A DNA stretch of 64,000 bases from positions 1-64,000 of the forward strand of contig JAFYXL010000014.1 of assembly GCA_017546165.1 (NCBI GenBank), given 5' to 3'. This document shows positions 7,505 to 27,097 of this stretch, piece by piece. The notes beneath the pieces were generated by a model, which did no database searches, was not told where the DNA came from, and worked only from the letters and a program-made list of their open reading frames with translations. Both the position numbers and the translations under genes were made by a program. The stretch's first letter is position 1; the number at the start of each line of letters is the position of its first letter. The DNA is from Clostridia bacterium. GTDB lineage: Bacteria > Bacillota > Clostridia > Monoglobales > Monoglobaceae.

Positions 7505-7533
7505 AATATCACCTTTCAAAACTACTTTGTCCT

Positions 7534-7653: not shown

Positions 7654-7694
7654 TAAAATAATATAATTTTATGCTAAATAAAGGAGGGTTTATT

Positions 7695-8942
7695 TTGGCA
7701 AATGCTGTAATTATGCCTAAAGCCGGTATTACTGTAGAAAGCTGTATTATCGGTAACTGGGAAAAGAAGGTTGGCGATCAAGTAAAGATAGGCGATGTCC
7801 TGTTTACATATGAAACTGATAAGGCCAGCTTTGAATGTGAATCTACTGCGGAAGGTACATTGCTGGAAATTTTCTACCAGGATGGTGATGAGGTTCCTTG
7901 CCTGATGAATGTTTGTGCTGTCGGTAATCCCGGCGAGGATTGCTCAAGCCTTCGTCCGGAAGGAGAAACCGTCCGGGATGCAGAAGAAACTGAAAAGGCA
8001 ACGGAGGCTGCTCCTGTTGCGGTTGCCGAAATTGCTCCTGTTGAAACAACTGCGGTTAGTGGTGAAAAGTCAGCTGCTTCTCCAAGGGCTAAAAAATTGG
8101 CGGAACGTGCAGGTGTAGATGTATCTTTAGCAACACCTACTGGACCAAACGGCAGAATAATCGAACGTGATGTCAGAACTTTAATGGAAAATCCTGTTAG
8201 TGCACAGACTGCAGTTAAAGCTTCATCTGCTCCTATGGCAGCAGAAGTAGAATATGAGGATGTTAAGTTCAGCGGTATCCGCCGTGCTATCAGCAAATCA
8301 ATGCATACATCATTATCGACAATGGCTCAGCTTACCCACAATACATCATTTGATGCATCTGCTATTTTGGCCTACAGAAAGCAGCTCAAAGCATCCGAGG
8401 GTGATTGTGCGGGTATTACTTTAGGTGACATTGTACTTTATGCTGTTTCACGTACATTACTTAACCATCCTGATTTAAATGCACATATGCTGGATGACAA
8501 CAGTATTCGCCTGTTCAAACACGTTAATCTTGGTGTTGCTGTTGATACACCACGTGGCTTGATGGTTCCTACCATATTCCACGCTGATGAAATGAGCTTG
8601 CTTGAAATTTCAAAGGCTGTGAAAGAACTTGCTAAGGAGTGCCGTGATGGCAATATTAATCCTGATAAGTTATCCGGCGGTACATTTACTGTTTCAAATC
8701 TTGGTAATATGGGAGTTGAATCATTTACTCCTGTTATTAACCCGCCGCAGACAGGTATTTTAGGAGTTTGCGGTACAGTTGACCGTGTTCGCAAAGGCGC
8801 AGATGGATCAATTCAGATTTATCCTGCTATGGGTCTTAGTCTTACATATGACCACCGTGCAGTAGATGGTACACCTGCTGCTCGCTTCCAGAAGGAACTT
8901 TGTCAGAATCTGGAGAACTTTACCACGCTTTTGGCTAAATAA
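7695..8942 (+). CDS. Dihydrolipoamide acyltransferase (E2) of a 2-oxoacid dehydrogenase complex
   Basis: 415 residues if started at the TTG at 7695, which sits seven bases after AGGAGGG; an in-frame ATG at 7671 has no ribosome site. Domain order is one lipoyl domain (lipoylated Lys about residue 43 in YETDKASFE), an Ala/Glu/Val-rich linker, a peripheral subunit-binding domain (ASPRAKKLAERAGVDVSLAT), and the acyltransferase domain ending with YDHRAVDGTPAARF, in which His and Asp are the catalytic pair. It transfers the acyl group from E1-bound lipoamide to CoA. Whether the acyl group is acetyl from pyruvate, from acetoin, or a branched chain cannot be settled from this subunit. Confidence 0.93.
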   Translation: MANAVIMPKAGITVESCIIGNWEKKVGDQVKIGDVLFTYETDKASFECESTAEGTLLEIFYQDGDEVPCLMNVCAVGNPGEDCSSLRPEGETVRDAEETEKATEAAPVAVAEIAPVETTAVSGEKSAASPRAKKLAERAGVDVSLATPTGPNGRIIERDVRTLMENPVSAQTAVKASSAPMAAEVEYEDVKFSGIRRAISKSMHTSLSTMAQLTHNTSFDASAILAYRKQLKASEGDCAGITLGDIVLYAVSRTLLNHPDLNAHMLDDNSIRLFKHVNLGVAVDTPRGLMVPTIFHADEMSLLEISKAVKELAKECRDGNINPDKLSGGTFTVSNLGNMGVESFTPVINPPQTGILGVCGTVDRVRKGADGSIQIYPAMGLSLTYDHRAVDGTPAARFQKELCQNLENFTTLLAK

Positions 8943-10336: not shown

Positions 10337-12802
10337 ATGCCAAAGAGTTTATTTGTTGATCCCGCCGAGACGCTTGCTCCCGGTAAGATTACATTCAAAG
10401 ACATTCCGGTTAATGCTTACAATAAAACAATTGCTGAAGAACGTGGTCGTTTTAGCGATGATGACCTTGTTCGTATCTACCGTGATATTACCGTTTTGCG
10501 TGAGTTTGAGTCTATGCTCAGCCTCATTAAGACACAGGGTGTGTATAACGGAATTGAAACTACATATCCGGGCCCTGCTCATTTGTCAGTTGGTCAGGAA
10601 GCTGCAGCAGTAGGTCAGGCATACCTTTTGGATCAGAACGACTTTTCATTTGGTTCACATCGTAGCCACTCAGAAATTCTTGCAAAAGCACTTTCTTGTA
10701 TTCACAAACTCAGTGAACAAGAGCTTATGACAATTATGGAGGGGTTCCTTGGCGGTAGTGCTCTCCGTGCAACAGAGAAACTGGGTCCTGTAAGTGATGT
10801 AAAGGAACTTGCTATCCGTTTTATCCTTTACGGAACACTTTCTGAAATCTTTGCCCGTGAAACAGGTTTCCACAAAGGTATGGGCGGATCAATGCACGCA
10901 TTCTTCCTGCCGTTTGGTATATATCCAAACAATGCTATTGTTGGCGGTAGTGCAGCTATCGCAACAGGTGCTGCTCTCTTTAAGAAGGTTAACGGCAAGC
11001 AGGGTATCGTTGTTTGCAACTCAGGCGACGGTTCAATGGCACGCGGTCCTGTTTGGGAGGCTATGAACTTTGCTGCTATGGATCAGTTCCACACATTGTG
11101 GGAAAGCCATAACGGTGGTATGCCAATTCTTTATAATGTATTTAATAACTCTTATGGTATGGGTGACCAGACCCGTGGCGAAACAATGGGTTATGATATG
11201 CTTGCTCGTATCGGTTCAGGTGTGAGCCCAACTCAGTTCCACGCTGAACGTATCAATGGCTTCAATCCTCTTGCTGTTATTGATGCTATGGAACGTAAAC
11301 TTGAAATTTTACGTGCAGGTGAAGGTCCTGTTATGTTAGATACACTTACATATCGTTATTCAGGACACTCTGTATCTGACCAGAATGCTTACCGTACCAA
11401 GGAAGAAATCGAAGCTTGGCAAGCAATTGACCCAATCATCACATACCGCAAGGGTCTTGTTGATGCAGGTGTTACCAGTGATTCTAAGATGGAAGAAATT
11501 CTTGCTGAAACAGCAGAACGTATGACAATGATTTGCAAGGCGGCTTCTGACCCTGAAGTTAGTCCATATGTAAACTTCAAAACCGATCCTGCAGTTGTTG
11601 AACGTATGATGTTTTCAAATGAAAAGGTTGAAAAGTTTGATGACCGTGAACCCGAGGTTAATATGCCTCTCGAGGAAGTTCCTGCTTATAAGAAGATTAA
11701 GGAAAAGGAACGTTGCCCTATTGTTAATGGCAAGCCGGTTTCAAAGATGAAGTTGTTCAATCTTCGTGACGCTATGAGCGAAGTTATTTATGATCGATTC
11801 TATGAAGATCCTACACTTATCGCATACGGTGAAGACTGTCGTGACTGGGGCGGTGCCTTTGCAGTTTACCGTGGAATGATGGATGCATTCCCACATTGTC
11901 GTCTCTTTAACTCGCCTATTGCTGAAGCTGCAATTGTTGGTACAGCTGTTGGCTATGCAGTATCCGGTGGTCGTGCTTTGGTAGAACTTATGTATGCTGA
12001 CTTTATCGGTTGTGCCGGTGACGAAATCTTTAACCAGATGTCAAAATGGCAGGCAATGTCTGCAGGTATCCTCAAAATGCCGGTTGTTCTCCGTGTATCT
12101 GTTGGTTCAAAATACGGTGCACAACATTCTCAGGACTGGACAGCACTTTGTGCTCACATTCCTGGTCTTAAAGTTTGTTTCCCTGCAACACCTTGGGAAG
12201 CCAAGGGCCTTATGGAAACAGCTCTTAAGGGAACTGACCCTGTTGTATTCTTTGAAAGTCAGAGAATCTATGACGTTGGTGAACAGTTCCACGAAGGCGG
12301 TGTTCCTGCTGAACGTTACGAAATTGAATTTGGTGATGTGAATAAGGTTCGCGAAGGTAAGGATGTTACAATACTGACTATTGGTGCGGCTCTCTATCGT
12401 GCGGTTGATGCAGCAAAACAGCTCAGCGAGAAGTATGGTATGGAGGCAGAAGTTATTAACCTTCATTCGCTTGTTCCTCTTGACTATACAAAGATTGTTG
12501 AATCTGTAAAGAAGACAGGCCGAGTTGTTTTGGTATCTGATGCTTGTGCACGTGGTTCATTTATGAATGATGTTGCAAAGAATATCACAGAATTATGTTT
12601 TGACGATCTTGATGCGCCACCTGTTGTTGTTGGTGCCCGCAACTGGATAACACCTCCATTCGAGTTTGATGAATTCTTCTTCCCACAGGCAGGATGGATT
12701 TTGGATGCTATCCACGAGAAGTTGGTTCCACTGCCAGGTCACGTTGTTGAAAATGGATGCACTGAGGCTGAAACATATCGTAGAGCAAAGCAGGGTGTAT
12801 AA
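10337..12802 (+). CDS. 2-oxoacid dehydrogenase E1, fused alpha and beta subunits
   Basis: 821 residues that join what is usually two proteins. The first half is an E1-alpha with the thiamine diphosphate motif GDGSMARGPVWEAMNFA (from about residue 230), and with HRSHSEILAKA and YRYSGHSVSDQNAYRT. The second half, from about residue 475, is E1-beta (LRDAMSEVIYDRFYEDPTL, FNSPIAEAAIVGTAVGYA). The enzyme decarboxylates a 2-oxoacid (or cleaves acetoin) and loads the acyl group on lipoyl-E2. Fused alpha-beta E1 proteins occur in some bacteria, mostly described as branched-chain or acetoin type. The operon order E2-E3-E1 is also unlike the common E1-E2-E3. Substrate uncertain. Confidence 0.9.
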   Translation: MPKSLFVDPAETLAPGKITFKDIPVNAYNKTIAEERGRFSDDDLVRIYRDITVLREFESMLSLIKTQGVYNGIETTYPGPAHLSVGQEAAAVGQAYLLDQNDFSFGSHRSHSEILAKALSCIHKLSEQELMTIMEGFLGGSALRATEKLGPVSDVKELAIRFILYGTLSEIFARETGFHKGMGGSMHAFFLPFGIYPNNAIVGGSAAIATGAALFKKVNGKQGIVVCNSGDGSMARGPVWEAMNFAAMDQFHTLWESHNGGMPILYNVFNNSYGMGDQTRGETMGYDMLARIGSGVSPTQFHAERINGFNPLAVIDAMERKLEILRAGEGPVMLDTLTYRYSGHSVSDQNAYRTKEEIEAWQAIDPIITYRKGLVDAGVTSDSKMEEILAETAERMTMICKAASDPEVSPYVNFKTDPAVVERMMFSNEKVEKFDDREPEVNMPLEEVPAYKKIKEKERCPIVNGKPVSKMKLFNLRDAMSEVIYDRFYEDPTLIAYGEDCRDWGGAFAVYRGMMDAFPHCRLFNSPIAEAAIVGTAVGYAVSGGRALVELMYADFIGCAGDEIFNQMSKWQAMSAGILKMPVVLRVSVGSKYGAQHSQDWTALCAHIPGLKVCFPATPWEAKGLMETALKGTDPVVFFESQRIYDVGEQFHEGGVPAERYEIEFGDVNKVREGKDVTILTIGAALYRAVDAAKQLSEKYGMEAEVINLHSLVPLDYTKIVESVKKTGRVVLVSDACARGSFMNDVAKNITELCFDDLDAPPVVVGARNWITPPFEFDEFFFPQAGWILDAIHEKLVPLPGHVVENGCTEAETYRRAKQGV

Positions 12803-13462: not shown

Positions 13463-14530
13463 TTATAATACTTTTATGTTTTTGACGGAATTCCTCAGGA
13501 TAATTTCAGGCTCAAAGGTTTTCTGGTATGGCCAGATTGTTTTTTTCTTTTTTATATCAAGCAATGCTTTTGCTATTACCTCGCCCAATTTTTCCTTGGG
13601 GTGAGATATAGTGGTCAAAGACGGAAGCATAGTGGAGGCTATAACCGTATTATCCACACTTATCACTGAAATATCTTCCGGAACACGATAACCCAGATCG
13701 TTGATGATAGATACACATTGTTTTGCTATAATGTCGTTGTTGCAGAAAAATGCAGTTAAATTTGGAGTTTTTGCAATTGTATTTTTTATGTCATTTGCAA
13801 GAACAGGGGAGAAGTCTATGAGAATAGGAGCTTCACCTAAAATGTTTTTGAATCCTGACAGACGGAGGAGAGAGTCTTTTTGATTACTGCAATAAATCAT
13901 ACAAATTTCAGAATGTCCGTATTGCAACAAAAATTCAGCAGCAAGTTCTCCTACACGAAATTCATTAAGAATGACATTTGATTGAGGTACATTGTCGTAA
14001 GTTCCGTCAAGCATTATATAGGGAATACCCTTTTTCTCAAGATGTGATAAGGCTTGCGATACTTCGTCCGGTTGGTCTTGCGCAATATTACTTGGTTGAA
14101 AAATAACACCGTCAGAACCGGTTTCGGCTATTTTTTCAAGAATAGAAACGATGGTCTTTGAATTGTTCTTTGTATCGTTGATCTTTACGCTGCAATCTTC
14201 CTTTTCAAATACTTCACAGATACTGTGGAGATAGTAGGGTATAAAATACACATCTTTCATATCAAGAAGCAAATCAAAGTTATATTGCTTTTCATCAACA
14301 GGTTTGGCTTTGCAATAGGTACCTTTGCCGTGATGCTTTTCCAAAAGACCTTCATTTACAAGTACAGAAAGCGCTTCTCTTATTGTAAGTCTTCCAAGTT
14401 GATATTTTCTTATCATTGCAGCCTCGCTGATAAGCTTGTCACCGGGCTTTATTGTGCCGTTTATAATCTGTTGGCGTATTAAATCAGCCAACTGAATATA
14501 AAGCGGGATATGTTTTCTTCTGTCTATCAT
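13463..14530 (-). CDS. GntR-family transcriptional regulator with a LacI-type sugar-binding domain (AraR-like)
   Basis: 355 residues. The first 75 or so form a GntR winged helix (HIPLYIQLADLIRQQI, then TIREALSVLVNEGLLEK and HHGKGTY). The rest is a periplasmic-binding-protein-like effector domain of the LacI/GalR kind (DGVIFQPSNI, IPYIMLDGTYD, PEDISVISVDNT). This two-domain build is that of AraR, the arabinose repressor of Bacillus. It diverges from the nine-gene sugar operon and is its likely repressor, with a sugar from that pathway as effector. Its own promoter is overlapped by a perfect palindrome, so autoregulation is likely. Confidence 0.9.
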   Translation of the reverse strand: MIDRRKHIPLYIQLADLIRQQIINGTIKPGDKLISEAAMIRKYQLGRLTIREALSVLVNEGLLEKHHGKGTYCKAKPVDEKQYNFDLLLDMKDVYFIPYYLHSICEVFEKEDCSVKINDTKNNSKTIVSILEKIAETGSDGVIFQPSNIAQDQPDEVSQALSHLEKKGIPYIMLDGTYDNVPQSNVILNEFRVGELAAEFLLQYGHSEICMIYCSNQKDSLLRLSGFKNILGEAPILIDFSPVLANDIKNTIAKTPNLTAFFCNNDIIAKQCVSIINDLGYRVPEDISVISVDNTVIASTMLPSLTTISHPKEKLGEVIAKALLDIKKKKTIWPYQKTFEPEIILRNSVKNIKVL

Positions 14531-14606: not shown

Positions 14607-14662
14607 TTGACATTTACTGATAAAAATGGTATCATTAATAATAAACTCATACAGATGAGTTT
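14607..14662 (+). promoter_or_regulatory. Promoter of the sugar operon with an inverted repeat at the start site
   Basis: TTGACA (14607-14612), 17-base spacer, TATCAT (14630-14635). Immediately downstream, AAACTCAT (14643-14650) and ATGAGTTT (14655-14662) form an inverted repeat over the expected start of transcription, a candidate operator different in sequence from the one in front of the regulator gene. Confidence 0.7.
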
Positions 14663-14691: not shown

Positions 14692-16059
14692 ATGTCGTGT
14701 AAAATTTGTATTATCGGCGCAGGAAGTGCTATCTTTTCGTTAAATCTTATTAAAGATATCTGCATTAACGAAAAATTTAAGGGCTCTACCGTTTCGCTTA
14801 TGGACGTAAATGAGGACAGACTTAATGCAATTTATGGATTGTGTACAAGATATGCAAGCGAAATGGAATTAGACATTAATATTATCAAAACTCAGGACAG
14901 ACGCGAAGCAATGCAGGGAGCAGATTTTGTTCTTAATGTTGCTTTGGATTATGGTCATGAACGTTACAAACAGGGAATAAAGGTTGCTTATGATCATGGT
15001 TACCGTTTTGGCGGAAGTCTTCACGTGCTTCACGACGAGGCATTCTTTATCAATTTCCATCAGCTTAGACTTATGGAAAGTATTTTGATTGATGTCCTCG
15101 ACATTTGCCCGGATGCTTACTACATAATGGTTGCAAACCCTGTTCAGGCAGGTGTTACATACCTTTCAAGAAAGTACAAAAATGCAAAGGTTATCGGTAT
15201 GTGTCACGGCTATACAGGTGTTTATTCAATTACCGATTTAATGGGTCTTGACAGAAAGTATATTGATTTTGAAGTTTGCGGTGTAAACCACTTCCTTTGG
15301 ATGACAAACTTTACATATAAAGGCGAAGACGGTTATAAGCTCATTGACAAATATCTTGAAGAACACAACGGAAGCATTTGGCCGGAAGGTGCAAAAATTG
15401 AGGATATCGGACTTAAGGCTGATGAATGTTCACTTAAGGCGATTGACCTTTACAAAAGATATGGTCTGTTCCCAATTGGCGACACTGCAAGTGCAGGTGG
15501 CGGCGCTTGGGGTTGGGAATACCACACAGACGCTGAAACAGAAGAAAAGTATAAGAGCAATCCATATCACTGGTATGAACTTTACTTCAAAGAATGTGAA
15601 GAGAATGTTGCTAGAATCAAAGAGGTTGTTGAAGATACTTCTATCAAAGTTTCAGATGCGTTTTCAACTGTTCCTTCAGATGAGCCTATGATTCCGCTTA
15701 TTGAAGGTCTTGCGTTTGGTACAGGCAATCGCGTTGTTGTAAACATTCTTAACGAAGCAGGTTGTATGAAAGGTCTTCCTACAGATTATGAAGTTGAAGT
15801 TTCAGCTATCATAGACAAGGGTGGCATCCATCCAATTTGCAACAATGGTTTGCCAAAGCCAATTATGGCGCATCTTCTCCGTGACAGAATTGCTCCGGTT
15901 GAAATGGAATTGGCTGCATTTGAAAATCATAGCCGTGATCTCCTTGTTGACTTGGTTATGATGGATCCTTGGACTAAGAGCAGAAAGCAGGCTGAAGAAT
16001 TGATAGATGCAATTTTTGATTTGCCTTGCAATGCTGATATGAAAGAATACTATAAATAA
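14692..16059 (+). CDS. Glycoside hydrolase family 4 protein (NAD- and Mn-dependent alpha-glycosidase)
   Basis: 455 residues, the standard GH4 length. The Rossmann N-terminus is CIIGAGSAIFSLNLIKDI. The NP motif (VANPVQAGVTYLSRK) and the metal-binding Cys-His of MCHG are present, with another His in CGVNHFLWM. GH4 enzymes cleave glycosides by an oxidation-elimination route that needs NAD and a divalent metal, and they act on alpha-galactosides, alpha-glucosides, alpha-uronides or 6-phosphoglycosides. First gene of the sugar operon, with a GGGAGG site. With no PTS or ABC transporter beside it, the phosphorylation state of its substrate cannot be told. Confidence 0.9.
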   Translation: MSCKICIIGAGSAIFSLNLIKDICINEKFKGSTVSLMDVNEDRLNAIYGLCTRYASEMELDINIIKTQDRREAMQGADFVLNVALDYGHERYKQGIKVAYDHGYRFGGSLHVLHDEAFFINFHQLRLMESILIDVLDICPDAYYIMVANPVQAGVTYLSRKYKNAKVIGMCHGYTGVYSITDLMGLDRKYIDFEVCGVNHFLWMTNFTYKGEDGYKLIDKYLEEHNGSIWPEGAKIEDIGLKADECSLKAIDLYKRYGLFPIGDTASAGGGAWGWEYHTDAETEEKYKSNPYHWYELYFKECEENVARIKEVVEDTSIKVSDAFSTVPSDEPMIPLIEGLAFGTGNRVVVNILNEAGCMKGLPTDYEVEVSAIIDKGGIHPICNNGLPKPIMAHLLRDRIAPVEMELAAFENHSRDLLVDLVMMDPWTKSRKQAEELIDAIFDLPCNADMKEYYK

Positions 16060-16073
16060 GTCGGTGAGTTTAA

Positions 16074-17576
16074 ATGCAATATTTTTTAACATTTGATGTT
16101 GGAACAACATCTATGAAATGTCTTTTATTTGATGAAAACTTCAAAGAGGTGTTCTTTGATGAGACTGAGTACTCTCTTTTGACTCCGGCACAGGATATTG
16201 TAGAGATTGACCCGGATATCTATTTCAACACCCTTTGCGGTAGCACAAATAAAATAGCAAAATCTGGCATAAGTGTAGATGATATAGCTGCAATTACAAT
16301 TACAACTCAGGGCGAAACGTTAATTCCTATTGATAAGGACGGAAAAACTCTTCGCAATGCGATAGTATGGATTGACGGAAGGGCAGTCATCGAAGCAGAC
16401 GAAATAAAAGCCAAGATTGATTCAAAAGAAATTTACAAAACTACCGGTCTTGGTGAAATAAACGGTTGTGTTCCCGCTGCAAAGCTTTTGTGGATATATA
16501 AAAATGAACCTGAAGTTTATGACAATACATACAAGTTTATGCTCCTTGAAGACTATCTTATTTACAGACTTACAGGAGCTGCTGTTACTGAACAATCTTT
16601 GATTTCTTCAACAGCGTGGTTTGACATTGTTAATGAGTGTTATTACGACAAGATGCTTGATGTTTGCTCAATTGACAAGGATAAACTTCCTGAAATTCTG
16701 CCTTGTGGTGAAAAAGTGGCTAATCTTACTGCTGATGCGGCAAAACTTACAGGGTTGTCAGAAAAAACAATTGTTGTTACAGGTGCTATGGATCAGGTTT
16801 CATCTGCTATCGGTGCAGGTAATATCTGTGACGGAATAGTTACCGAGACAACAGGTACAGCTCTTGTTGCAGGCGCAACAGCATCACAACCTGATTTTTC
16901 AAGTGATTGCGCAATTACAATTTACAAGCACTTTAATCACGGATATCTTTATATGCCTTATTGCAATACAGCAGGCATTGTTCTTAAATGGTTCAGAGAT
17001 GAACTTATGAAAGAACTTAAACGCAACGCTAAAGAAACAGGGGTTTCTGCATACGCGCTTATTGATGAAATCGCAGCAGAATCCAAAGCCGGCAGCAATG
17101 GTGTAGTAGTACTTCCCCATTTTGCAGGAAGAAGTGTTACTTCCCCCAATGACAAAACAAAGGGCGTTATCTACGGAATTACCCTTGGAACAAAGCTTTC
17201 TGATGTTGCCCGCAGTGTACTTGAGTCTGTTGCTTGTATGCTTAAAGAACTTATAGATTCTTTTGAAAAGCAGGGTATTAATGTTACCGAAATCCGTTCT
17301 TTGGGTGGCGGTGCAAACAGTGATTTGTGGTGTGAAATAAAAGCAGGAATTTGTAATAAAAATATTATGCGTTCCTCATATGCACAAACCACAGCACTTG
17401 GTGCGGCAATCCTGGGGGCAACAGCTATGGGCAAATATAATTCAGTTGAAGAGGCCGTTAAGGTTGCGGATTTAGGCTTTACTAAGTTTGAACCCAAAAC
17501 CGAGGATTTAGCTGCATATAAGGAAGCAAGTGAAAAATATTATGAGCTTTATGAGGCTCTTGATAAAGTATTTTAA
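16074..17576 (+). CDS. FGGY-family carbohydrate kinase, xylulokinase-like
   Basis: 500 residues, full length for the FGGY family. The N-terminal phosphate loop FDVGTTSMKCLLFD, the TTQGETLIPIDKDG and WIDGRA substrate region, and the C-terminal ATP-binding GGGANSDLWCEI and QTTALGAAILGA are all in place. Closest in appearance to xylulokinases, which phosphorylate a ketose at its terminal hydroxyl. It follows GH4 by 14 bases. In this operon it would phosphorylate the ketose made by the next gene product, the fucose-isomerase-like protein. Confidence 0.88.
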   Translation: MQYFLTFDVGTTSMKCLLFDENFKEVFFDETEYSLLTPAQDIVEIDPDIYFNTLCGSTNKIAKSGISVDDIAAITITTQGETLIPIDKDGKTLRNAIVWIDGRAVIEADEIKAKIDSKEIYKTTGLGEINGCVPAAKLLWIYKNEPEVYDNTYKFMLLEDYLIYRLTGAAVTEQSLISSTAWFDIVNECYYDKMLDVCSIDKDKLPEILPCGEKVANLTADAAKLTGLSEKTIVVTGAMDQVSSAIGAGNICDGIVTETTGTALVAGATASQPDFSSDCAITIYKHFNHGYLYMPYCNTAGIVLKWFRDELMKELKRNAKETGVSAYALIDEIAAESKAGSNGVVVLPHFAGRSVTSPNDKTKGVIYGITLGTKLSDVARSVLESVACMLKELIDSFEKQGINVTEIRSLGGGANSDLWCEIKAGICNKNIMRSSYAQTTALGAAILGATAMGKYNSVEEAVKVADLGFTKFEPKTEDLAAYKEASEKYYELYEALDKVF

Positions 17577-17597
17577 AAAAAGAAAGAAGGTATTGTT

Positions 17598-18953
17598 ATG
17601 AAAAATATGGAAAAAGCCAATGTAGTTGTTTTGAGTGTTGGTGAACAGCAGTATCCTCAGGATTATCTTGATAATGTAATTCAGGAAATTGATGCTGAAA
17701 TTAAAAAAATGGACTGTAATGTTCTTGGCTGCTATAAGATTATGAACTTCAGCGATGCTGAGAAGGTTGCTGATGCACTTAAAGAACAAAAAGTTGATTT
17801 GTTCATTGCTAAATTTGTTTCTTGGCATATTACAATCAACATTATGCACGTTCTCAAAAACTTCCGCGATGTTCCGGTTCTTATCTGGGGTATCGGTGGT
17901 GTTACTGACAAAACAGGCAAGCTTCACGCTCCTGCTGCAGGCGCAGGTATCACAGGTTTTATCCCTGTTGCAAAAGAGTTTGGATTCAAGTACAAGATTA
18001 TTATGGAACAGCCGGATGCTCCTCACGCATATGACGAGGTTGCTGACTACATCCATTCAGTAAGCTGCGCAAAGAGAGTTCGTGCAGCACGTATAGGCCT
18101 TATTGGTTATGCTGATATGGGTCTTTACCCACTTTCATACGATAAGACAGCACTTTGCAAAAAGATAGGTATTGATATTGAAAATTACGATGGCTATCTT
18201 ATTGCTGACCTTATGAATGCCTTCCCTGAAGACAGAGTTAAGGAAACAATGGATTGGATAAGAAGCACAACAAAAGCTCAGAATACAATTGCTGATGAGC
18301 CTCTCGAAAAGGTTACAAGACTTTACCTTGCAATGAAGGATAAAGCAGACGGCAGACAGCTTGATGCAATTGCTGTTAAGTGCGTTGATGGTATCACAAA
18401 GCTTGGTTTCAACCCTTGTCTTGCCCAGTCACTTCTTGCTGACAAGGATGTATCTGTTATCTGTGAATGTGATGCTTATGGTCTTGTTACCAGCATTATC
18501 CTTTCAACAGTTTCAGGAAATACTTCAGCATTTGTTGAACATTACGAAGTATTTGATAACTCTGTTCTCGTTGGTGTTTGTGGATTTATCCCTCGTGATT
18601 TTATTGATGGTGATTTTGAAATCAAGTCTGCAAATCTTGGCGAATACAACACAGGTATCAGTAATGTTTCAAAACTTAAGACCGGAGAAGTTACATACGG
18701 TAGATTCTTTAATGACAACGGCAAATTCAAGATGTTCTTACAGCACGGTACAACTAAACCTAATCCAAAGTGGACCGAGCTTGGTTGGGAAGAACCTACA
18801 CCTGATTTCCCTGCTGCTCTTCTTGAACTTGAAATACCTATGAACGAGTATCTTGACAAAGTTCCTGGTCAGCACGTTATTATGATATTTGGCGACTATG
18901 TTGAAAAGGTTAAGACAGTTTGTAACCTTCTTGATATTGAGGTTGTTGAATAA
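17598..18953 (+). CDS. L-fucose/L-arabinose isomerase-superfamily protein
   Basis: 451 residues. The order and style of segments (IAKFVSWHITINIMHVL, VPVLIWGIGGVTDKTGKL, DAIAVKCVDGITKLGFNPCL, CECDAYGLVTSIIL) are those of the fucose-isomerase-like group, in which a Glu and an Asp of the central part and a late His hold the metal. Here candidates are Glu in ICECDAYG and His in FLQHGTTKPNP. These enzymes interconvert aldoses and ketoses with Mn. It is shorter than classical FucI (about 590). The sugar is unknown. Confidence 0.8.
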   Translation: MKNMEKANVVVLSVGEQQYPQDYLDNVIQEIDAEIKKMDCNVLGCYKIMNFSDAEKVADALKEQKVDLFIAKFVSWHITINIMHVLKNFRDVPVLIWGIGGVTDKTGKLHAPAAGAGITGFIPVAKEFGFKYKIIMEQPDAPHAYDEVADYIHSVSCAKRVRAARIGLIGYADMGLYPLSYDKTALCKKIGIDIENYDGYLIADLMNAFPEDRVKETMDWIRSTTKAQNTIADEPLEKVTRLYLAMKDKADGRQLDAIAVKCVDGITKLGFNPCLAQSLLADKDVSVICECDAYGLVTSIILSTVSGNTSAFVEHYEVFDNSVLVGVCGFIPRDFIDGDFEIKSANLGEYNTGISNVSKLKTGEVTYGRFFNDNGKFKMFLQHGTTKPNPKWTELGWEEPTPDFPAALLELEIPMNEYLDKVPGQHVIMIFGDYVEKVKTVCNLLDIEVVE

Positions 18954-18971
18954 GAGAAGAGGGTATCTGAA

Positions 18972-19664
18972 TTGCGTAGAGAATTGAAAAGATTTGAGAG
19001 AGGCGCTGAGAAGTGCAAAATCTTGCCTGAAGGAATGTTGAAACTTGCTTTTGTGGATGTGGATTTAAAGAACTCAGACCTTGTTTATGAGGTTGAAAAC
19101 TTTGATGATACAAAGTTCGCTGAAGATTTTATTGTAAAGTCCGGCGAATGGACGGTTGAAGATGGATGGGTAGTAGGCAAAAACCCTGAAATGTGCCCAG
19201 GAATGATTGTTTCAACGAAAGACTTTTTTGGCAATGTAATGGTTGAAATTACAGCTAAAATGGTTGCTCCTGCCACACACGATATCAACGTTATGATTAA
19301 CGGTGAGTGGGATGAGGAAAAGGATTGCCGAGGTATGGCATATGTAGCAGGTGTAGAAGCCTTCTGGCACGGAAATGTGGGTTTTGAAAAGTCTCCTGAG
19401 TACAAATTAACAGCTGCTACAGCGTTATTTGATTTTGATCCCAAAAAGGAACATAATTTCAAAATGGGTAACGCAGATGGAAAAGTTTTTGTTCTCATTG
19501 ATGACAAACTTTGCCTTGAAATAACGGACCCCACACCTCTTGATGCTAATAAATATGGCAAAATCGGTTTTGAAGCATATTCAAGTTGGTGGAAGTTTAA
19601 AAACTTGAAGGTTTATAACCTTAAATTTAAAAAAATTGAGGAATACTATAATCCTGAATTTTAA
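18972..19664 (+). CDS. Concanavalin-like (jelly-roll) domain protein of unknown role
   Basis: 230 residues without a signal peptide. The start is a TTG, eight bases after AAGAGGG; no nearby ATG allows a full domain. The second half alternates hydrophobic and polar residues in beta-strand fashion (VMVEITAKMVAP, GKVFVLIDDKLCLEITDP, GKIGFEAYSSWWKFKNLKVY), the usual look of a LamG/DUF1080-type sandwich, whose members often bind or cut carbohydrate. It lies inside the operon between isomerase and aldolase, so a cytoplasmic role on the same sugar is likely. I could not identify catalytic residues. Confidence 0.65.
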   Translation: MRRELKRFERGAEKCKILPEGMLKLAFVDVDLKNSDLVYEVENFDDTKFAEDFIVKSGEWTVEDGWVVGKNPEMCPGMIVSTKDFFGNVMVEITAKMVAPATHDINVMINGEWDEEKDCRGMAYVAGVEAFWHGNVGFEKSPEYKLTAATALFDFDPKKEHNFKMGNADGKVFVLIDDKLCLEITDPTPLDANKYGKIGFEAYSSWWKFKNLKVYNLKFKKIEEYYNPEF

Positions 19665-19693
19665 TTAAGAGTTACATAAGAAAGGAATAAGCA

Positions 19694-20368
19694 ATGTTAT
19701 ACATTTTAGACACAGCGGATTTAAATTCAATTAAGCATTGCAACGAGTTCTATCCTCTTGACGGGGTTACAACAAATCCGTCAATTATTGCAAAAGAAAA
19801 GACAGATTTTTGGAAGCTTGTAAAGGAAATCCGCAACATTATAGGTGAAGAAAAAATGCTTCACGTACAGACAACACAAACCGTTGCTGAAAAGATTGTT
19901 GAAGAGGCAAAGCTTTTGAAGAAAGAGCTTGGTGAAAATACTTTTGTAAAAATCCCTATTTGCGAGGAAGGCTTAAAAGCAACAACTATGCTCAAAAAGA
20001 TGGGGATTGGTGTAACAGTTACTGCTATTTTTACACCAGCACAGGCTCTTATCGCCGCAAAAGCAGGTGCATCTTTTGTTGCTCCGTACGTAAACAGACT
20101 TGATAATTTCTTAGGAGACGGTACAGAAGTTGTTTCTGAAATAGTTGGTCAGCTTGAAATTTACAATCTTGATTGCAAGGTTCTTGCTGCAAGTTTCAAA
20201 ACAGCTGAACAGGTACACAAATGTTCATCAGTTGGTTGTCATAGTGTTACTGTGACTGAGGAACTTTTGGAAATGGTTATCAGCCATCCGATGACTGATG
20301 TTGCTATTGCCGGATTTGAAAGAGATTGGAAGTCAGTGTACCAAGATAAAACAATACTTGATTTTTAA
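19694..20368 (+). CDS. TalC/FSA-type transaldolase or fructose-6-phosphate aldolase
   Basis: 224 residues, the short class of transaldolase. Conserved pieces are LDTADLNSIKHC, GVTTNPSIIAKE, the Schiff-base lysine (about residue 86) in FVKIPICEEGLKA, and VTVTAIFTPAQALIAAKAGA. Short TalC-like enzymes either transfer a dihydroxyacetone unit or split a ketose phosphate into dihydroxyacetone and an aldehyde. In this operon it is the only candidate for the C-C cleavage step. The Firmicutes sulfoglycolytic transaldolase pathway uses the same protein class, showing that substrates other than fructose 6-phosphate are possible. Confidence 0.88.
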   Translation: MLYILDTADLNSIKHCNEFYPLDGVTTNPSIIAKEKTDFWKLVKEIRNIIGEEKMLHVQTTQTVAEKIVEEAKLLKKELGENTFVKIPICEEGLKATTMLKKMGIGVTVTAIFTPAQALIAAKAGASFVAPYVNRLDNFLGDGTEVVSEIVGQLEIYNLDCKVLAASFKTAEQVHKCSSVGCHSVTVTEELLEMVISHPMTDVAIAGFERDWKSVYQDKTILDF

Positions 20369-20381
20369 TGCGAGGTGCGAA

Positions 20382-20978
20382 ATGATTAAAGAAGAATCAC
20401 TTATTCAAGCAAAAGCTGCATATGCGATCGAAAGCGAGTGCATTACAAATATGCTTGAGCATTTTGATGAAGAATCATTCTCTAAAGCGGTAGAACTTTT
20501 AAAAAATGCTGAACGCATAGGTGTGTCAGGTTGTGGACATTCAGGAATTATGTGTCAGCACTTTGCACATCTTATGTGCTGCATTGAGCGTCCGTCAAGA
20601 TTTATCTCACCCGCTGAGGCAGTACACGGAGCAATGGGATTTATGCAAAAGGGCGACGTTATGGTTTTTGCATCAAGAGGGGGAAAAACAAAAGAACTTT
20701 TACCTATTCTTGATATATGCAAGTCAAAAGGCGTTTCGGTTATTTCTATAACTGAGAATATGGAATCACCATTGGCTGTAAATGCAGATGTTGTGCTTAA
20801 ACAGTATGTTAATCGCGAAACCGATAAATACAATTCACAAGGAACAACATCATCCACAGCTCTTTGTATGATTTTCCATACACTTCAGACTGCTCTTATT
20901 GAAGAAACCGGTTACAAAAACGAACAGTTTGCTGTAATACATCCCGGTGGGGCGGTTGGAGAAAGATTAAACAAATAA
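20382..20978 (+). CDS. SIS-domain sugar-phosphate isomerase, arabinose-5-phosphate isomerase-like
   Basis: 198 residues from the ATG at 20382, which follows GAGGTG; an upstream in-frame ATG at 20298 lies within the transaldolase gene and is unlikely. SIS features: AERIGVSGCGHSGIMCQHFAHLM, then VMVFASRGGKTKELLPILDICKSKG, and HPGGAVGERL at the C-terminus, the ending typical of KdsD/GutQ-type arabinose 5-phosphate isomerases, here without CBS domains. It would interconvert an aldose phosphate and a ketose phosphate. Confidence 0.87.
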   Translation: MIKEESLIQAKAAYAIESECITNMLEHFDEESFSKAVELLKNAERIGVSGCGHSGIMCQHFAHLMCCIERPSRFISPAEAVHGAMGFMQKGDVMVFASRGGKTKELLPILDICKSKGVSVISITENMESPLAVNADVVLKQYVNRETDKYNSQGTTSSTALCMIFHTLQTALIEETGYKNEQFAVIHPGGAVGERLNK

Positions 20979-21018
20979 AAATTATTAAACATTTTATAAA
21001 GCCTAGGAGGAAATGAAA

Positions 21019-21639
21019 ATGGAATTTAAAGTTTTTCAAAAGGAATTAGAGTTACAGTCAAGAGGTTGGATCCCAACCTTCCACGATATCTCAAAAGAGG
21101 TAAATGAAATTGTTGCTGCATCAGGCATAAAGAATGGTACAGTAAGCATCGTTTCTCACCATACAACTTGCTCAGTTATGGTTCAGGAATGCTCACACGA
21201 TATCGATTCTTTCGACCTTGAATATTTGCAGCATGACCTTCTTGATATTATGAGAAAGATGATCCCTGACTTTGCTGAAGAACATCAGTATCGTCATCCG
21301 GGTCCAATCCACGCACAGTACGGCAGACACGTTAATGAACCTGGCGATTACTCAAGTATGAACACAGATGGACACTTGAGAAGCTGCTTCTTTGGCAGAT
21401 CAGAAGCAATGACAATCAAAGATGGCGTTGTTGATGGTGGTAAGTTTGCTCACGTTTACTTCATTGACTGGGATCACGTTCTTGCACGCCGCAGACAGGT
21501 TAATATCACTGTTATGGGTACAACAGAGGATGTAGGCGATAGAAAGTGGAACAACGGTGAAGTTATTGATACAAAGCGTAAGTTCACAGACGAAGAAAAA
21601 GCTTATGACATCCACTACGATCTTCAGCAGCAGAGATAG
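21019..21639 (+). CDS. YjbQ-family (UPF0047) protein, long form
   Basis: 206 residues from the ATG at 21019 (eight bases after AGGAGG; the ATG at 21013 is only two bases from it). The family signature SHHTTCSVMVQECSHD and the C-terminal GHLRSCFFGRSEAM, with YFIDWDHVLARRRQV, are clear. YjbQ proteins are small metal-site proteins. The E. coli member has a weak thiamine phosphate synthase activity, and the true function is not settled. This copy is longer than usual, with an insert between the two motif blocks (about residues 80-120). A second copy lies at 22365, with a TIM-like gene between. Confidence 0.88.
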   Translation: MEFKVFQKELELQSRGWIPTFHDISKEVNEIVAASGIKNGTVSIVSHHTTCSVMVQECSHDIDSFDLEYLQHDLLDIMRKMIPDFAEEHQYRHPGPIHAQYGRHVNEPGDYSSMNTDGHLRSCFFGRSEAMTIKDGVVDGGKFAHVYFIDWDHVLARRRQVNITVMGTTEDVGDRKWNNGEVIDTKRKFTDEEKAYDIHYDLQQQR

Positions 21640-21651
21640 GAGTTTGACATA

Positions 21652-22362
21652 ATGAAAAGACAAATCAGAACTCCATATTTTGAGATTGGTACAAAAAACT
21701 ACATATATGGTGACAAGGTTTTGGAATATGCTTTGGCAGCAGATAAAGCGGCAGAAAAGTATGATATAGATGTTTTGTTCATTACACCTGCTGTTGAAAT
21801 CAGACGTATTGTTGAAAACACAAAGCACTTAATCGTCCTTGCTCCTTATATGGATACTTTAAGACCCGGTAGAGGTATGGCTGACATTCTTCCTGAAGCT
21901 CTTAAAGCGGCAGGAGCCGAAGGTGTCGTAATTAATCACTGCGAAAAGCCTATGTCACTTCCACAAATGAAAGCAACCATTGAAAGAGCAAATGAACTTG
22001 ATATGCTTGTTTTTGCTTGCGCTGATAGCGTTGATGAAACAAAGGCTATTGCACAGCTTCACCCTGATATCATCAATCCTGAGCCATCTGAGTTAATTGG
22101 TGGTACATCAAACGGTGTAAGTGATATGAGTTACGTTAAGGAAGTTATTGAAGAAATCCGCAAGATTGACTCAACAATCCTTATCGAACAGGCTGCCGGT
22201 ATTACAAACGGTCAGCAGGTATATGACTTCATTATGGCAGGCTCAGAGGCAGCAGGTGCGGCTTCAGGCATAATGAATGCAGAAGACCCAATTGCTATGA
22301 TTGATGAAATGATAGGCGCAGTACGCAGAGCTGCAGATGATTTAAAGAAAATGGAGAAATAA
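21652..22362 (+). CDS. Archaeal-type triosephosphate isomerase-like protein
   Basis: 236 residues, aligning by eye with archaeal TIMs as I remember them. The catalytic Lys (about 15, GTKNYIYG), His (about 96, INHCEKPM) and Glu (about 144, NPEPSELIGG) are all present, followed by a phosphate-loop-like GGTSNGVSDMSYV. The Asn that normally precedes the lysine in NXK is replaced by Gly. Bacterial glycolytic TIM is longer (about 250) and has a different sequence, so this is probably not the housekeeping enzyme. It most likely interconverts a C3 or C4 keto/aldo phosphate released by the operon's aldolase. It starts 12 bases after the first YjbQ. Confidence 0.85.
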   Translation: MKRQIRTPYFEIGTKNYIYGDKVLEYALAADKAAEKYDIDVLFITPAVEIRRIVENTKHLIVLAPYMDTLRPGRGMADILPEALKAAGAEGVVINHCEKPMSLPQMKATIERANELDMLVFACADSVDETKAIAQLHPDIINPEPSELIGGTSNGVSDMSYVKEVIEEIRKIDSTILIEQAAGITNGQQVYDFIMAGSEAAGAASGIMNAEDPIAMIDEMIGAVRRAADDLKKMEK

Positions 22363-22364
22363 CT

Positions 22365-22859
22365 ATGATATATAAGGAAACGGTAAAAGTTAATTCAAAT
22401 GATAAAGCATATACCTTCCACAATGTTACAGCCCAGGTTAAGGAAGCTGTTGCAAAATCGGGTATAAAAAATGGTATTGCAGTTGTTTATTCACACCACA
22501 CAACTTGTAGTGTAATCACTCAGGAGTGTGCATTTGATATGTCAATCACAGGCCTTGAGACTCTTCAGCAGGATCTTATCAATGTGTTTGATAATATTGT
22601 TCCTGTTTGCAAGCACGAAGGCGTTTACCTTCATCCAGGTCCAAAAGCTCTCAAATTTGCTGAGGAACACGATGAAGACGCAAGAGGTTGCCACAATACA
22701 GATGCTCACCTTCGCTCATCAATTATCGGCAGAAGTGAAAGCATAGTAATTGATGATGGTGTTCTTGACCTTGGTGAATTTGGTTTTATCTATTTCATAG
22801 ATTTTGACACAACCAGAGGCAGACAGCGTACAGTTAAGATAATGGTTATCGGTGAATAA
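22365..22859 (+). CDS. YjbQ-family (UPF0047) protein, short form
   Basis: 164 residues. It carries the same signature as the first copy (YSHHTTCSVITQECAFD, AHLRSSIIGRSESIVIDDG, YFIDFDTTRGRQRTVKI) without most of the insert. It begins two bases after the TIM-like stop, so translation is coupled. Two diverged copies flanking one isomerase suggest either a heteromeric complex or two successive reactions on related sugar phosphates. Last gene of the operon, ended by the terminator at 22871. Confidence 0.88.
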   Translation: MIYKETVKVNSNDKAYTFHNVTAQVKEAVAKSGIKNGIAVVYSHHTTCSVITQECAFDMSITGLETLQQDLINVFDNIVPVCKHEGVYLHPGPKALKFAEEHDEDARGCHNTDAHLRSSIIGRSESIVIDDGVLDLGEFGFIYFIDFDTTRGRQRTVKIMVIGE

Positions 22860-22870
22860 TCAGAGTTTAA

Positions 22871-22904
22871 AAAGAACCTTAATCTTTAGAGATTAAGGTT
22901 CTTT
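22871..22904. terminator. Terminator of the sugar operon and the convergent dehydrogenase
   Basis: AAAGAACCTTAATCT (22871-22885) pairs perfectly with 22890-22904 around TTAG and is followed by a T-run on the plus strand and preceded by A's, so it works both ways. Confidence 0.93.
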
Positions 22905-22915
22905 TTTTTAATTTA

Positions 22916-23963: not shown

Positions 23964-24707
23964 TTAAGAACGAATTTCCTGTATTCCTTCAAGGATAATT
24001 TTTTTGGCATTTATTGCGTCTTGTTTTGGTAATGCAGAAATACCTTCTAAGGGATATGGAATACCAAGTTCCTTATACTTGCCAACACCCATAGTGTGGT
24101 ATGGCAAAACATCCAGAGCCCGGAGGTTTTTGAGAGTGCCTATAAAACGCCCTAAATCCCTTAAATCTTTTGGGTCATCTGTAATCCCTTTTATAATAAT
24201 ATGTCTTACCCAAAGCGGAATTTTTTTGCTTTCAAGATACTTTGCAAAAAGGAGTATGTTTTTGTTATCCCAACCGGTAAGATTTTTATGCTTTTCGGAA
24301 TCAATATGTTTGATATCAAGCATACATAGGTCGGTGTAATTCATAAGTTCGTCCAATTTTTTTGTATATAATACATTTTGGGGATCATATGTTACTCCGG
24401 AAGTATCAATACAAGTATGTATTCCCTCGGCGCTTGCCTTTCTGAAAAGGTCAATGAGAAAATCTATTTGCAGAAGTGGCTCACCGCCTGTTACTGTAAT
24501 GCCGCCTTTTTCATAAAAGGAAGAATTTTTATTGTATTCTTCAAGGATTTCTTCTGGAGTTATTTCCTGACCTGTGCCTATTTTCCAAGTATCCGGATTG
24601 TGACAGTAAAGACACCGCATCGGACAGCCCTGCATAAAGACAACATATCGTATGCCGGGACCATCAACTGTGCCAAAACTTTCCTGGGAATGGATTAAAC
24701 CTTTCAT
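23964..24707 (-). CDS. pflA: Pyruvate formate-lyase-activating enzyme (radical SAM)
   Basis: 247 residues. The radical-SAM cluster motif is FMQGCPMRCLYCHNPDTW (CX3CX2C), and the SAM-binding GGITVTGGEPLLQ follows. PflA uses a [4Fe-4S] cluster and SAM to abstract a hydrogen from the glycine of PFL, creating the stable radical. It starts four bases after the separately encoded glycyl-radical domain, so enzyme core, radical domain and activase form one operon. In this locus the activase's direct substrate is the 80-residue protein rather than a full-length PFL. Confidence 0.95.
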   Translation of the reverse strand: MKGLIHSQESFGTVDGPGIRYVVFMQGCPMRCLYCHNPDTWKIGTGQEITPEEILEEYNKNSSFYEKGGITVTGGEPLLQIDFLIDLFRKASAEGIHTCIDTSGVTYDPQNVLYTKKLDELMNYTDLCMLDIKHIDSEKHKNLTGWDNKNILLFAKYLESKKIPLWVRHIIIKGITDDPKDLRDLGRFIGTLKNLRALDVLPYHTMGVGKYKELGIPYPLEGISALPKQDAINAKKIILEGIQEIRS

Positions 24708-24711
24708 ATGA

Positions 24712-24954
24712 TTAAATCTTATCGTGGAAAGTTCTTGAAATAACCTCGTCTTGCTGTTCCTTTGTAAGTTTGATAAAGTTTACAGCATAGCCGCTTACAC
24801 GAATGGTAAGCTGTGGATATTTTTCAGGATGCGCCTGTGCGTCAAGAAGGGTTTCTTTTGTGAAAACATTTACATTAAGATGGTGACCACCTTTTTGAAC
24901 ATAACCGTCAAGAAGAGATACCAAGTTATCTATTTGATTTTGTGTTGCAGCCAT
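24712..24954 (-). CDS. Free-standing glycyl-radical domain of pyruvate formate-lyase (split subunit, GrcA-like)
   Basis: 80 residues corresponding to the C-terminal end of ordinary PFL: HHLNVNV, then [19 protein letters not shown], with the radical glycine at residue 55 in RVSGY, and [15 protein letters not shown] at the end. AAGGAGG seven bases ahead of the ATG at 24954 shows a genuine translation start. The gene is only 37 bases after the stop of the catalytic core gene. GrcA/YfiD of E. coli and a phage T4 protein are known spare parts of this kind, but those accompany a full-length PFL. Here the core protein has no glycine domain at all, so this subunit should be essential for activity. 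Confidence 0.93.
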
Positions 24955-24991
24955 TATTGTTTCCTCCTTCAAATTTAAAAAAATTTAGAAA

Positions 24992-27097
24992 TTACTGTTC
25001 GTCTGTATCAAGACCCTCAAAGAGAGTAGGTGATGAACAAGCACCGTTTGAGCAATCAAGATCTATTTCAATATCACCTGCAAAAATTTGGTCATCTTTA
25101 CCAAGTGCACCAGGGATAATTGAGAATGTATTTGAGATACCATCCTGAGCGTCAATGAATGGAAGCTTTGAAACTGTTGCAAGTGATGCAACAGCACCGT
25201 GGGTGTCACGTCTATGCATTGGGTTCGCACCTGGAGCAAAAGCTTCACCTTTTTTACGTCCGTCAGGTGTCGCACCGGTATTTTTGCCATAAACTACATT
25301 TGATGTAATTGTAAGGATAGAAGTAGTAGGAATACTATCACGATATGTGTGGTTCTTTCTGATGTGCTCCATAAATCTGTGAACAATATCATATGCAATT
25401 GAGTCAACACGATCATCGTCATTACCATATTTAGGGAAGTCGCCCTCAACTTCGTAGTCAATAGCGATACCTGCTTCGTTACGAATGGTCTTAACTTTTG
25501 CATACTTGATAGCTGAAAGTGAGTCAGCCACAACCGAAAGACCTGCAATACCTGTTGCAAACCAACGTGTAACGTTCTTGTCGTGAAGAGCCATCTGAAT
25601 TTTTTCGTAGCAGTACTTGTCGTGCATATAGTGAATAATGTTAAGAGTATTTACATATACACCAGCAAGCCATTTCATCATTTCATCATATCTCTTCATA
25701 ACTTCGTCATAATCAAGGTATTCAGAAGTGATAGGACGATATTCAGGAGCGATCTGCTTACCGGAAATTTCATCAACACCGCCGTTGATAGCGTAAAGCA
25801 AACATTTTGCAAGGTTTGCACGAGCGCCGAAGAACTGCATTTCCTTACCAACTCTCATTGAAGATACGCAACAAGCGATTGCGTAGTCATCACCGTGAGT
25901 AAATCTCATAAGGTCATCGTTCTCATATTGAACGGAAGATGTTTCGATTGAGGTCTTTGCACAGAAACGCTTGAAGTTTTCAGGAAGTCTTGTTGACCAG
26001 AGAACTGTAAGGTTTGGTTCCGGAGCAGGACCGAGGTTTTTAAGAGTGTGGAGATAACGGTATGACATTTTTGTAACCATATGACGTCCGTCAATAGCAA
26101 CACCACCTATTGATTCAGTAACCCACTGTGGATCCCCGGAGAAGAGATCGTTGTATTCAGGAGTACGAGCAAATTTAACAAGACGAAGCTTCATAATGAA
26201 GTGGTCAACCATTTCCTGAATTTCTTTTTCGGTATATACACCGTTTTCTATATCTCTTTGTGCGTATATATCAAGGAAGGTAGAGGTTCTACCAAGTGAC
26301 ATTGCCGCACCGTTCTGTTCTTTAACTGCAGCAAGGTAACCGAAGTACAACCACTGGATAGCTTCCTTGGTGTCTTTTGCAGGAGCTGAAATATCATAGC
26401 CGTAGCTTGCGGCCATTTCTTTGAGTGCTTCAAGAGCGCGAATTTGTTCTGAAAGTTCTTCGCGGTTTCTGATTATAACTGAGTACATAGCGGAACGTGT
26501 AGTTTCCTTCTGTTCCATTTTGTCAGCAATAAGTCTGTCAACACCGTAAAGAGCAACACGACGGTAGTCGCCGATTATACGTCCACGACCATAAGCATCA
26601 GGGAGACCTGTAATAATGTGGCTTGAACGACAAGCTCTCATTTCAGGCGTGTATGCGTCAAATACACCTGCGTTGTGGGTCTTTCTGTGGACTGAGAAAA
26701 ATTCCTTAATAGAAGGATCAATTTCGTAACCGTTGTCCTTGCAGGCTTTTTCTGCCATACGGATACCGCCGTAAGGCATAAGTGCACGTTTAAAAGGTTT
26801 GTCTGTCTGAAAACCTACAATTTTTTCCTTATCTTTGTTAAGATATCCCGGTGCGTGTGATGTAATGGTTGATATCACATCTGTATCCATATCAAGAACA
26901 CCGCCGGCTTCTCTTTCTTGTTTTGTTAATTCAAGAACCTGATCCCAAAGATCAAGTGTATCTTGAGTCGGTTCTTCAAGAAAACTTTCGTCACCGTCGT
27001 ATGGTGTGTAGTTGTGTTTAATAAAGCTTCTTACGTTAATTTCTTTTTTCCAGGTTCCGCCTTCGAAACCTTTCCAAACTTCGAAATCATAATTCAT
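24992..27097 (-). CDS. pflB: Pyruvate formate-lyase catalytic core lacking the glycyl-radical domain
   Basis: 701 residues, against about 740-760 for a complete PFL. The catalytic cysteine pair is present (Cys409-Cys410 in [10 protein letters not shown]), as are [15 protein letters not shown] and [18 protein letters not shown]. At the point where other PFLs continue into the glycine domain, this protein goes into a short acidic tail of about 30 residues containing CSNGAC and stops. The missing domain is the next gene. PFL converts pyruvate and CoA to acetyl-CoA and formate without air. ATG at 27097 follows AAAGGAGAG. It is oriented as the first gene of the operon. Confidence 0.95.

Follow-up and report, generated by a model that had tools for sequence, protein, structure and literature searches.

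The operon and its boundaries

The stretch of DNA analysed here, referred to throughout as the window, comprises positions 1 to 64,000 (forward strand) of contig JAFYXL010000014.1 from the assembly GCA_017546165.1 of a gut Clostridia bacterium; the host contig is 94.7 kb long, and the genome assembly amounts to 1.34 Mb and is 88% complete. Within it, a run of nine genes on the plus strand (14692–22859) encodes, in order, a glycoside hydrolase family 4 (GH4) glycosidase, an FGGY sugar kinase, a FucI/AraA-fold isomerase, a ConA-like protein, a TalC-type aldolase, a SIS isomerase, a first YjbQ protein (YjbQ1), a TIM-like protein and a second YjbQ protein (YjbQ2). A preliminary description had presented these as nine tightly packed carbohydrate genes under one AraR-type repressor, with neither a transporter nor an assigned pathway. 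The packing was borne out by a check of the open reading frames (ORFs) of the window, in which all nine lie on one strand with intergenic gaps of 2–34 bases, and each family call was upheld by Pfam/NCBIfam profiles, that of the ConA-like protein at a sub-threshold score. The repressor is also present: a divergent gene (13463–14530, minus strand) encodes a GntR/LacI-type (AraR-like) protein with a GntR DNA-binding domain (PF00392) and a Peripla_BP_3 domain (PF13377).

The nine genes form a single transcription unit, bounded by a promoter, an inverted repeat and a terminator. The promoter (TTGACA-17-TATCAT; 14607–14635, plus strand) matches at 11 of 12 positions, carries a TG before the second hexamer and lies in the divergent gap; the promoter scan as a whole gave a number of sites not above that of shuffled sequences, and it is by this position that the site stands out. 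Just downstream is an operator-like inverted repeat with 8-bp arms, AAACTCAT-4-ATGAGTTT (14643–14662), and an intrinsic terminator of 17 pairs followed by a T-run (22869–22906, plus strand) closes the unit.

Families of the encoded proteins

The GH4 glycosidase (14692–16059) is AglA-like, with PF02056 (123.5 bits) and PF11975 (113.1 bits) both over the gathering score, and its closest solved relative is the alpha-glucosidase 1obb; against the AglA alpha-glucosidase equivalog it scores 328 bits and does not reach the cut-off of 650. The FGGY kinase (16074–17576) was identified by profile matches and is XylB-like below cut-off. The aldose-ketose isomerase (17598–18953; PF02952) belongs to a divergent clade: its best NCBIfam match is SftI, at 79.3 bits against a cut-off of 700, no curated model was reached, and no match was obtained to FucI TIGR01089, nor to AraA PRK02929 at 1e-3. 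The predicted structure (pLDDT 92) has the full-length fold of the L-arabinose isomerase AraI (Z 33.4 over 441 residues, root-mean-square deviation 3.3) and matches D-arabinose/L-fucose isomerase folds at Z 30–31, and on this model the protein is a member of the FucI/AraA superfamily. The ConA-like (DUF1080-like) protein that follows (18972–19664; sub-threshold PF06439, 3keto-disac_hyd) was considered as a pathway member and set aside as accessory, its relatives sitting in unrelated settings and not being conserved with the pathway.

The remaining five genes make up the back half of the operon. TalC (19694–20368; PF00923) scores 229.8 bits against TIGR00875, just under the cut-off of 245.95, and retains the fructose-6-phosphate aldolase (FSA) residues Q59, K85, T109, A129, Y131, R134 and S166, numbered on what we take to be the E. 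coli FsaA sequence. The FSA-type Q59, Y131 and K85 are kept in the window protein and in every homologue covering the site, and the changes F57H and L107T each occur in 16 of 24 homologues, that of the window included. Among sequences of known structure, TalC is closer to FSA (160 bits) than to SF transaldolase (105 bits), and by these sequence criteria it is FSA-type and not transaldolase-type. The single-domain SIS isomerase (20379–20978; PF01380) is KpsF/arabinose-5-phosphate-isomerase-like; its ORF opens at 20298, and comparison with homologues places the start codon at ATG 20379. The closest of its relatives in the PDB is the SIS domain protein 3fxa, and arabinose-5-phosphate isomerase 2xhz is also related.

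The TIM-like protein (21652–22362) is of the archaeal type (PRK04302, 149.2 bits, cut-off 132). The catalytic residues K15, H96 and E144 are invariant, and the N-x-K motif is altered, with Gly in place of Asn in the window protein and in all eight aligned members. Since an ordinary, canonical TpiA is encoded elsewhere in the same genome, the sequence marks the TIM-like protein as a specialised, altered extra enzyme.

YjbQ1 (21013–21639) belongs to a long YjbQ subfamily and YjbQ2 (22365–22859; TIGR00149, 86.7 bits, cut-off 67.75) to a short one; they score 81.4 and 95.6 bits against PF01894 (gathering score 27), and YjbQ1 matches the fold of 1vmj with a TM-score of 0.87 by target. YjbQ1 is the best conserved of the back-half proteins. 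It shares 92% amino-acid identity with its counterpart at locus L025, the third positions being merely 53% identical, a pattern that rules out recent transfer and points to strong constraint on the protein. YjbQ/UPF0047 proteins occur in bacteria and archaea and have many structures but no settled role, and no pathway role for them was found in the openly licensed literature. From linkage and conservation, we infer a part for YjbQ in the present pathway.

Conservation and exchange in relatives

A search of the genome neighbourhood for the conserved block, which the preliminary description had proposed, found that the block recurs. In G017, from the window's family, the order TalC-SIS-YjbQ1-TIM-YjbQ2 is the same as in the window, after which come genes for an AraA-like isomerase, an amidohydrolase and an FGGY kinase other than that of the window; G026 and G020, from the same family, keep the back-half order up to the contig edge. 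The operon is confirmed as real, and this recurrence shows that its gene order is not due to chance. The AraA-type version was also found in several more genera.

The isomerase search covered 85,000 species genomes, and genomes of the window's family and a sample of its class were examined besides. In the relatives only matches of at most ~30% identity were found, yet these adjoin FGGY, SIS, TIM, YjbQ and TalC genes. The 85,000-genome scan yielded one close isomerase (94%; L057, a metagenome-assembled genome (MAG) from yak caecum), which adjoins an FGGY gene (53%) and the beginning of a TalC gene (87%), together with 79 distant ones, mainly from ruminant gut Clostridia MAGs. Clustering of the loci gave a recurrent set of FucI-like, FGGY, TIM, YjbQ, SIS, TalC and ceramidase-like genes. 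A second recurrent set, hosted by Clostridia, Bacteroidota, Verrucomicrobia and Lentisphaerae, comprises the isomerase, an FGGY or PfkB kinase, a ceramidase-like protein, a class III aminotransferase and a Gfo/Idh oxidoreductase, without TIM, SIS or YjbQ. The operons at L078, L094, L123 and L126, which combine FucI-like, FGGY, ceramidase-like, class III aminotransferase and Gfo/Idh genes, are a second uncharacterised pathway with the same isomerase family.

Co-occurrence was counted using conservation-based gene selection and tblastn in 66 loci, most of which were gathered via FucI or YjbQ, so that the raw counts are biased: YjbQ is found in 62, YjbQ with TIM in 56 and YjbQ with TIM and SIS in 51. 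The back half (TIM, SIS, YjbQ and often an FSA-type TalC) was seen in some 60 loci. FucI never co-occurs with AraA in the 66 loci, nor with the amidohydrolase; a ceramidase-like gene accompanies FucI in 26 of 40 loci and an amidohydrolase accompanies AraA in 11 of 12. The mutual exclusivity of FucI and AraA is not accounted for by collection bias. In a less biased sample of the class, made up of 391 genomes from 222 genera, this YjbQ subfamily was present in 45 genomes and 30 genera.

When the window was compared with 19 complete mainstream loci, the isomerase and kinase were outliers, with mean identities to the mainstream of 31.5% for FucI (73.0% within the mainstream) and 37.2% for FGGY (58.5%). 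YjbQ1 (85.9% against 83.7%), SIS (70.0% against 65.9%) and TalC (66.1% against 62.4%) fall inside mainstream variation. An initial grouping of TIM with FucI and FGGY as the substrate-specific part was dropped on finding that relatives of the window TIM (mostly 84–92%) and YjbQ2 (mostly 73–80%) are common in AraA-type operons. On this sequence evidence, the exchanged part consists of isomerase, kinase and hydrolase only, and the back half is a shared module. The nine genes described at the outset are thus all present, but they do not make up a unique unit: the arrangement is modular, with a back half common to dozens of loci and an isomerase, kinase and hydrolase that are swapped.

Variants of the module were also observed. 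The TIM-SIS-YjbQ1 trio occurs without an adjoining isomerase or kinase at L173 (8064–10036), L188 (7666–9601) and L189 (7337–9475). A cousin operon (L193, 8361–12676; L194, 9327–13769) lacks SIS; it combines FGGY, ribulose-phosphate epimerase (RPE), a class II aldolase, TIM and YjbQ, and has an oppositely oriented regulator gene upstream.

Homologues of the GH4 enzyme (≤1e-60) were found in 6 of 197 genomes, namely that of the window, G020, G026, G052, G193 and G131. In the first five, GH4 lies beside or within ~15 kb of TIM/YjbQ/SIS; the surroundings in G131 are outside this count. GH4 stands together with YjbQ2-TIM in G026, G020 and G052; in G026 and G020 a 79% homologue, there located downstream, adjoins YjbQ2, TIM and YjbQ1, and in G026 SIS and the start of TalC are also visible before the contig end. 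The G193 gene, within ~15 kb of the module, has as further neighbours genes for an ABC sugar transporter and for a member of the alpha-L-rhamnosidase family. As to transport, the statement that the operon has none holds for this copy (no sugar transporter was detected in the operon or among the ~30 window ORFs scanned) but not for the pathway, as related clusters include ABC or MFS transporters. The G193 context suggests, by analogy, that an oligosaccharide or glycoside is imported before cleavage, which would answer the gap in the window operon.

Proposed pathway and rival readings

The reading that we favour, with a probability of roughly 0.4, is that of a modular sugar-catabolic operon whose substrate is most likely a pentose outside XylAB/AraBAD. 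As supported by homology, GH4 would cleave an imported glycoside in the cytosol and free the sugar, the FucI/AraA-fold enzyme would convert the free aldose into a ketose, and the FGGY kinase would phosphorylate it. For the back half we infer that the TIM-like protein and YjbQ would shift the carbonyl along the ketose-phosphate chain to give a D-pentulose 5-phosphate (plausibly ribulose 5-phosphate), that SIS would interconvert this with D-arabinose 5-phosphate, and that the FSA-type TalC would split the latter into glycolaldehyde and glyceraldehyde 3-phosphate. The succession of cleavage, isomerisation, phosphorylation, keto/aldo-phosphate interconversion and aldol cleavage had been outlined in the preliminary description, and family and comparative evidence upholds it as a supported reading. 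A pentose is favoured because sister operons hold AraA-like isomerases, because RPE takes the place of TalC in L104, L115 and L117, and because the SIS protein is of the arabinose-5-phosphate-isomerase kind.

Mechanistic precedent comes from the Brucella erythritol route (EryA, EryB, EryC, EryH, EryI), in which the FGGY kinase EryA acts first, an oxidation follows and three isomerases then lead to erythrose-4-phosphate; one of the three, EryH, is a TIM homologue that acts by rearranging a ketose phosphate (PMC5992420). In the window a sugar isomerase would stand in for oxidation, and TIM, YjbQ and SIS would occupy the isomerase slots. The erythritol route differs in starting from a polyol with the dehydrogenase EryB, in its RpiB-type EryI, in an EryC that is not a YjbQ protein, and in having no sugar isomerase, glycosidase or TalC; neither an EryB-type dehydrogenase nor an RpiB-type EryI is among the nine operon genes. 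For the final split, KdsD and FsaA have been shown to take ribulose 5-phosphate through arabinose 5-phosphate to glycolaldehyde and glyceraldehyde 3-phosphate, in vitro and in engineered E. coli (the ‘glycoptimus’ pathway; PMC6900487). The shared elements are an arabinose-5-phosphate isomerase-type SIS protein and an FSA-type aldolase; that pathway is synthetic and without a TIM/YjbQ/glycosidase module, whereas the function of the window pair is predicted from its genes. By analogy, the SIS-TalC pair could be a natural counterpart of the KdsD and FsaA split.

Several points weigh against the pentose reading. The support for every member is sequence-based and non-biochemical, and we know of no established sugar activity for YjbQ. 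TalC is absent from many loci, having been found in 28 of the 66; some of those without it are clipped by contig ends. The SIS protein scores 113.6 bits against the KpsF model (cut-off 203.7), having the SIS domain only and not the second KpsF domain. The need for SIS and FSA in a transketolase-bearing cell is not evident (the N-half of a transketolase is encoded elsewhere in the genome), no dedicated glycolaldehyde-handling gene was recurrent across loci, and the carbon number is not fixed, as hexose or tetrose versions suit the same gene set. On another contig of the same genome (C40), a glycyl-radical microcompartment locus (L200, 1–12304) contains shell-protein-like, FucA/AraD-type aldolase and aldehyde/alcohol dehydrogenase-like genes, all but the aldolase recognised by eye; small aldehydes, glycolaldehyde for instance, might be disposed of there.

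The same module could run a carbonyl relay on a hexose (or tetrose), in which the kinase would make a ketohexose-1-phosphate, TIM would move its carbonyl from C2 to C3, YjbQ would move it from C3 to C4, SIS would yield a 2-ketohexose-6-phosphate and TalC would release dihydroxyacetone and glyceraldehyde 3-phosphate. Three isomerase-type proteins equal exactly three carbonyl shifts, TalC keeps fructose-6-phosphate aldolase residues, FucI-like enzymes act on hexoses, and 6-phospho-3-hexuloisomerase provides a model for the SIS step, the SIS protein also matching HxlB weakly; KpsF-type matches, however, exceed that to HxlB, and the epimerase of L104 is RPE-type (259 bits, equivalog cut-off 212.6) and not AlsE-type (180 bits, cut-off 271). 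With the AraA-like isomerases and a pentulose-kinase-like FGGY protein of sister operons also against it, we regard the hexose version as rather unlikely, if a serious competitor. Somewhat more doubtful is the idea that the kinase product alone enters central metabolism, TIM, SIS and YjbQ being concerned with side-product repair or balancing and TalC serving as a general aldolase/transaldolase. The trio without isomerase and kinase neighbours at L173, L188 and L189 would suit such a role, but its tight co-conservation with kinases and isomerases elsewhere, the constraint on YjbQ1 and the motif change in every TIM member inspected argue against it.

That no standard route fits was sustained, the isomerase cut-offs for arabinose, fucose and sulfoquinovose not being reached. 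The AraBAD and FucIKA routes share the isomerase fold and an FGGY kinase with the window, and an AraI/FucI-fold isomerase beside a XylB-like kinase might be taken for a variant of the L-arabinose, L-fucose or D-arabinose route with recruited extra genes; such a variant is improbable, given that the isomerase falls below the AraA and FucI models and that the operon has no class II 4-epimerase or aldolase (AraD/FucA), the sole Aldolase_II (PF00596) match of the 88% complete genome lying in the glycyl-radical microcompartment locus. A sulfoquinovose route was prompted by the SftI match and rejected on cut-offs and missing genes: the sulfo-TAL pathway (SftI, SftT, SftG, SftR; PMC8397734) likewise has a transaldolase-family enzyme and a distantly related isomerase (79 bits) and occurs in gut Clostridia, but the window lacks a GH31 sulfoquinovosidase and a sulfolactaldehyde reductase among its nine genes, has an FSA-type aldolase together with TIM, SIS, YjbQ and a kinase that is unnecessary there (PMC8397734), and a sulfo-TAL variant is very hard to credit. 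Apiose, a branched pentose, was dropped after an empty literature search and for want of a mechanism suited to TIM and SIS, and a search on L-galactose gave unrelated work only.

No characterised operon with the same gene set was found in the openly licensed literature: the enzyme families are known ones, and it is their combination that the papers searched do not describe. It is conceivable, though we put it forward tentatively, that this is a new natural pathway in which YjbQ acts as a sugar-phosphate isomerase/epimerase with a modified TIM, and native SIS and FSA split ribulose 5-phosphate into glycolaldehyde and glyceraldehyde 3-phosphate, a split that to our knowledge exists only as an engineered route. 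If SIS and TalC act like their relatives, the engineered pentose-splitting route would already be natural. Being tightly linked to genes for a kinase, a modified TIM and a SIS isomerase, YjbQ/UPF0047 acquires a concrete pathway context. Because the YjbQ subfamily occurs in about one-ninth of the sampled genomes of the class, with named records mostly from herbivore gut, the substrate of the pathway is probably a common sugar of the diet or the host, missed by present annotation.

Two further features of the window lie outside the operon. On the minus strand (24712–27097), a pyruvate-formate-lyase-like gene looks split into ORFs of 701 and 86 aa that are separated by 19 bases, the shorter one carrying the glycyl-radical motif RVSGYAV; an activase gene (23964–24707) adjoins it. 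At 10337–12802, downstream of genes for an E2 (7671–8942) and a lipoate ligase (6527–7519), an 821-aa ORF resembles a fused alpha and beta E1 of a 2-oxoacid dehydrogenase.

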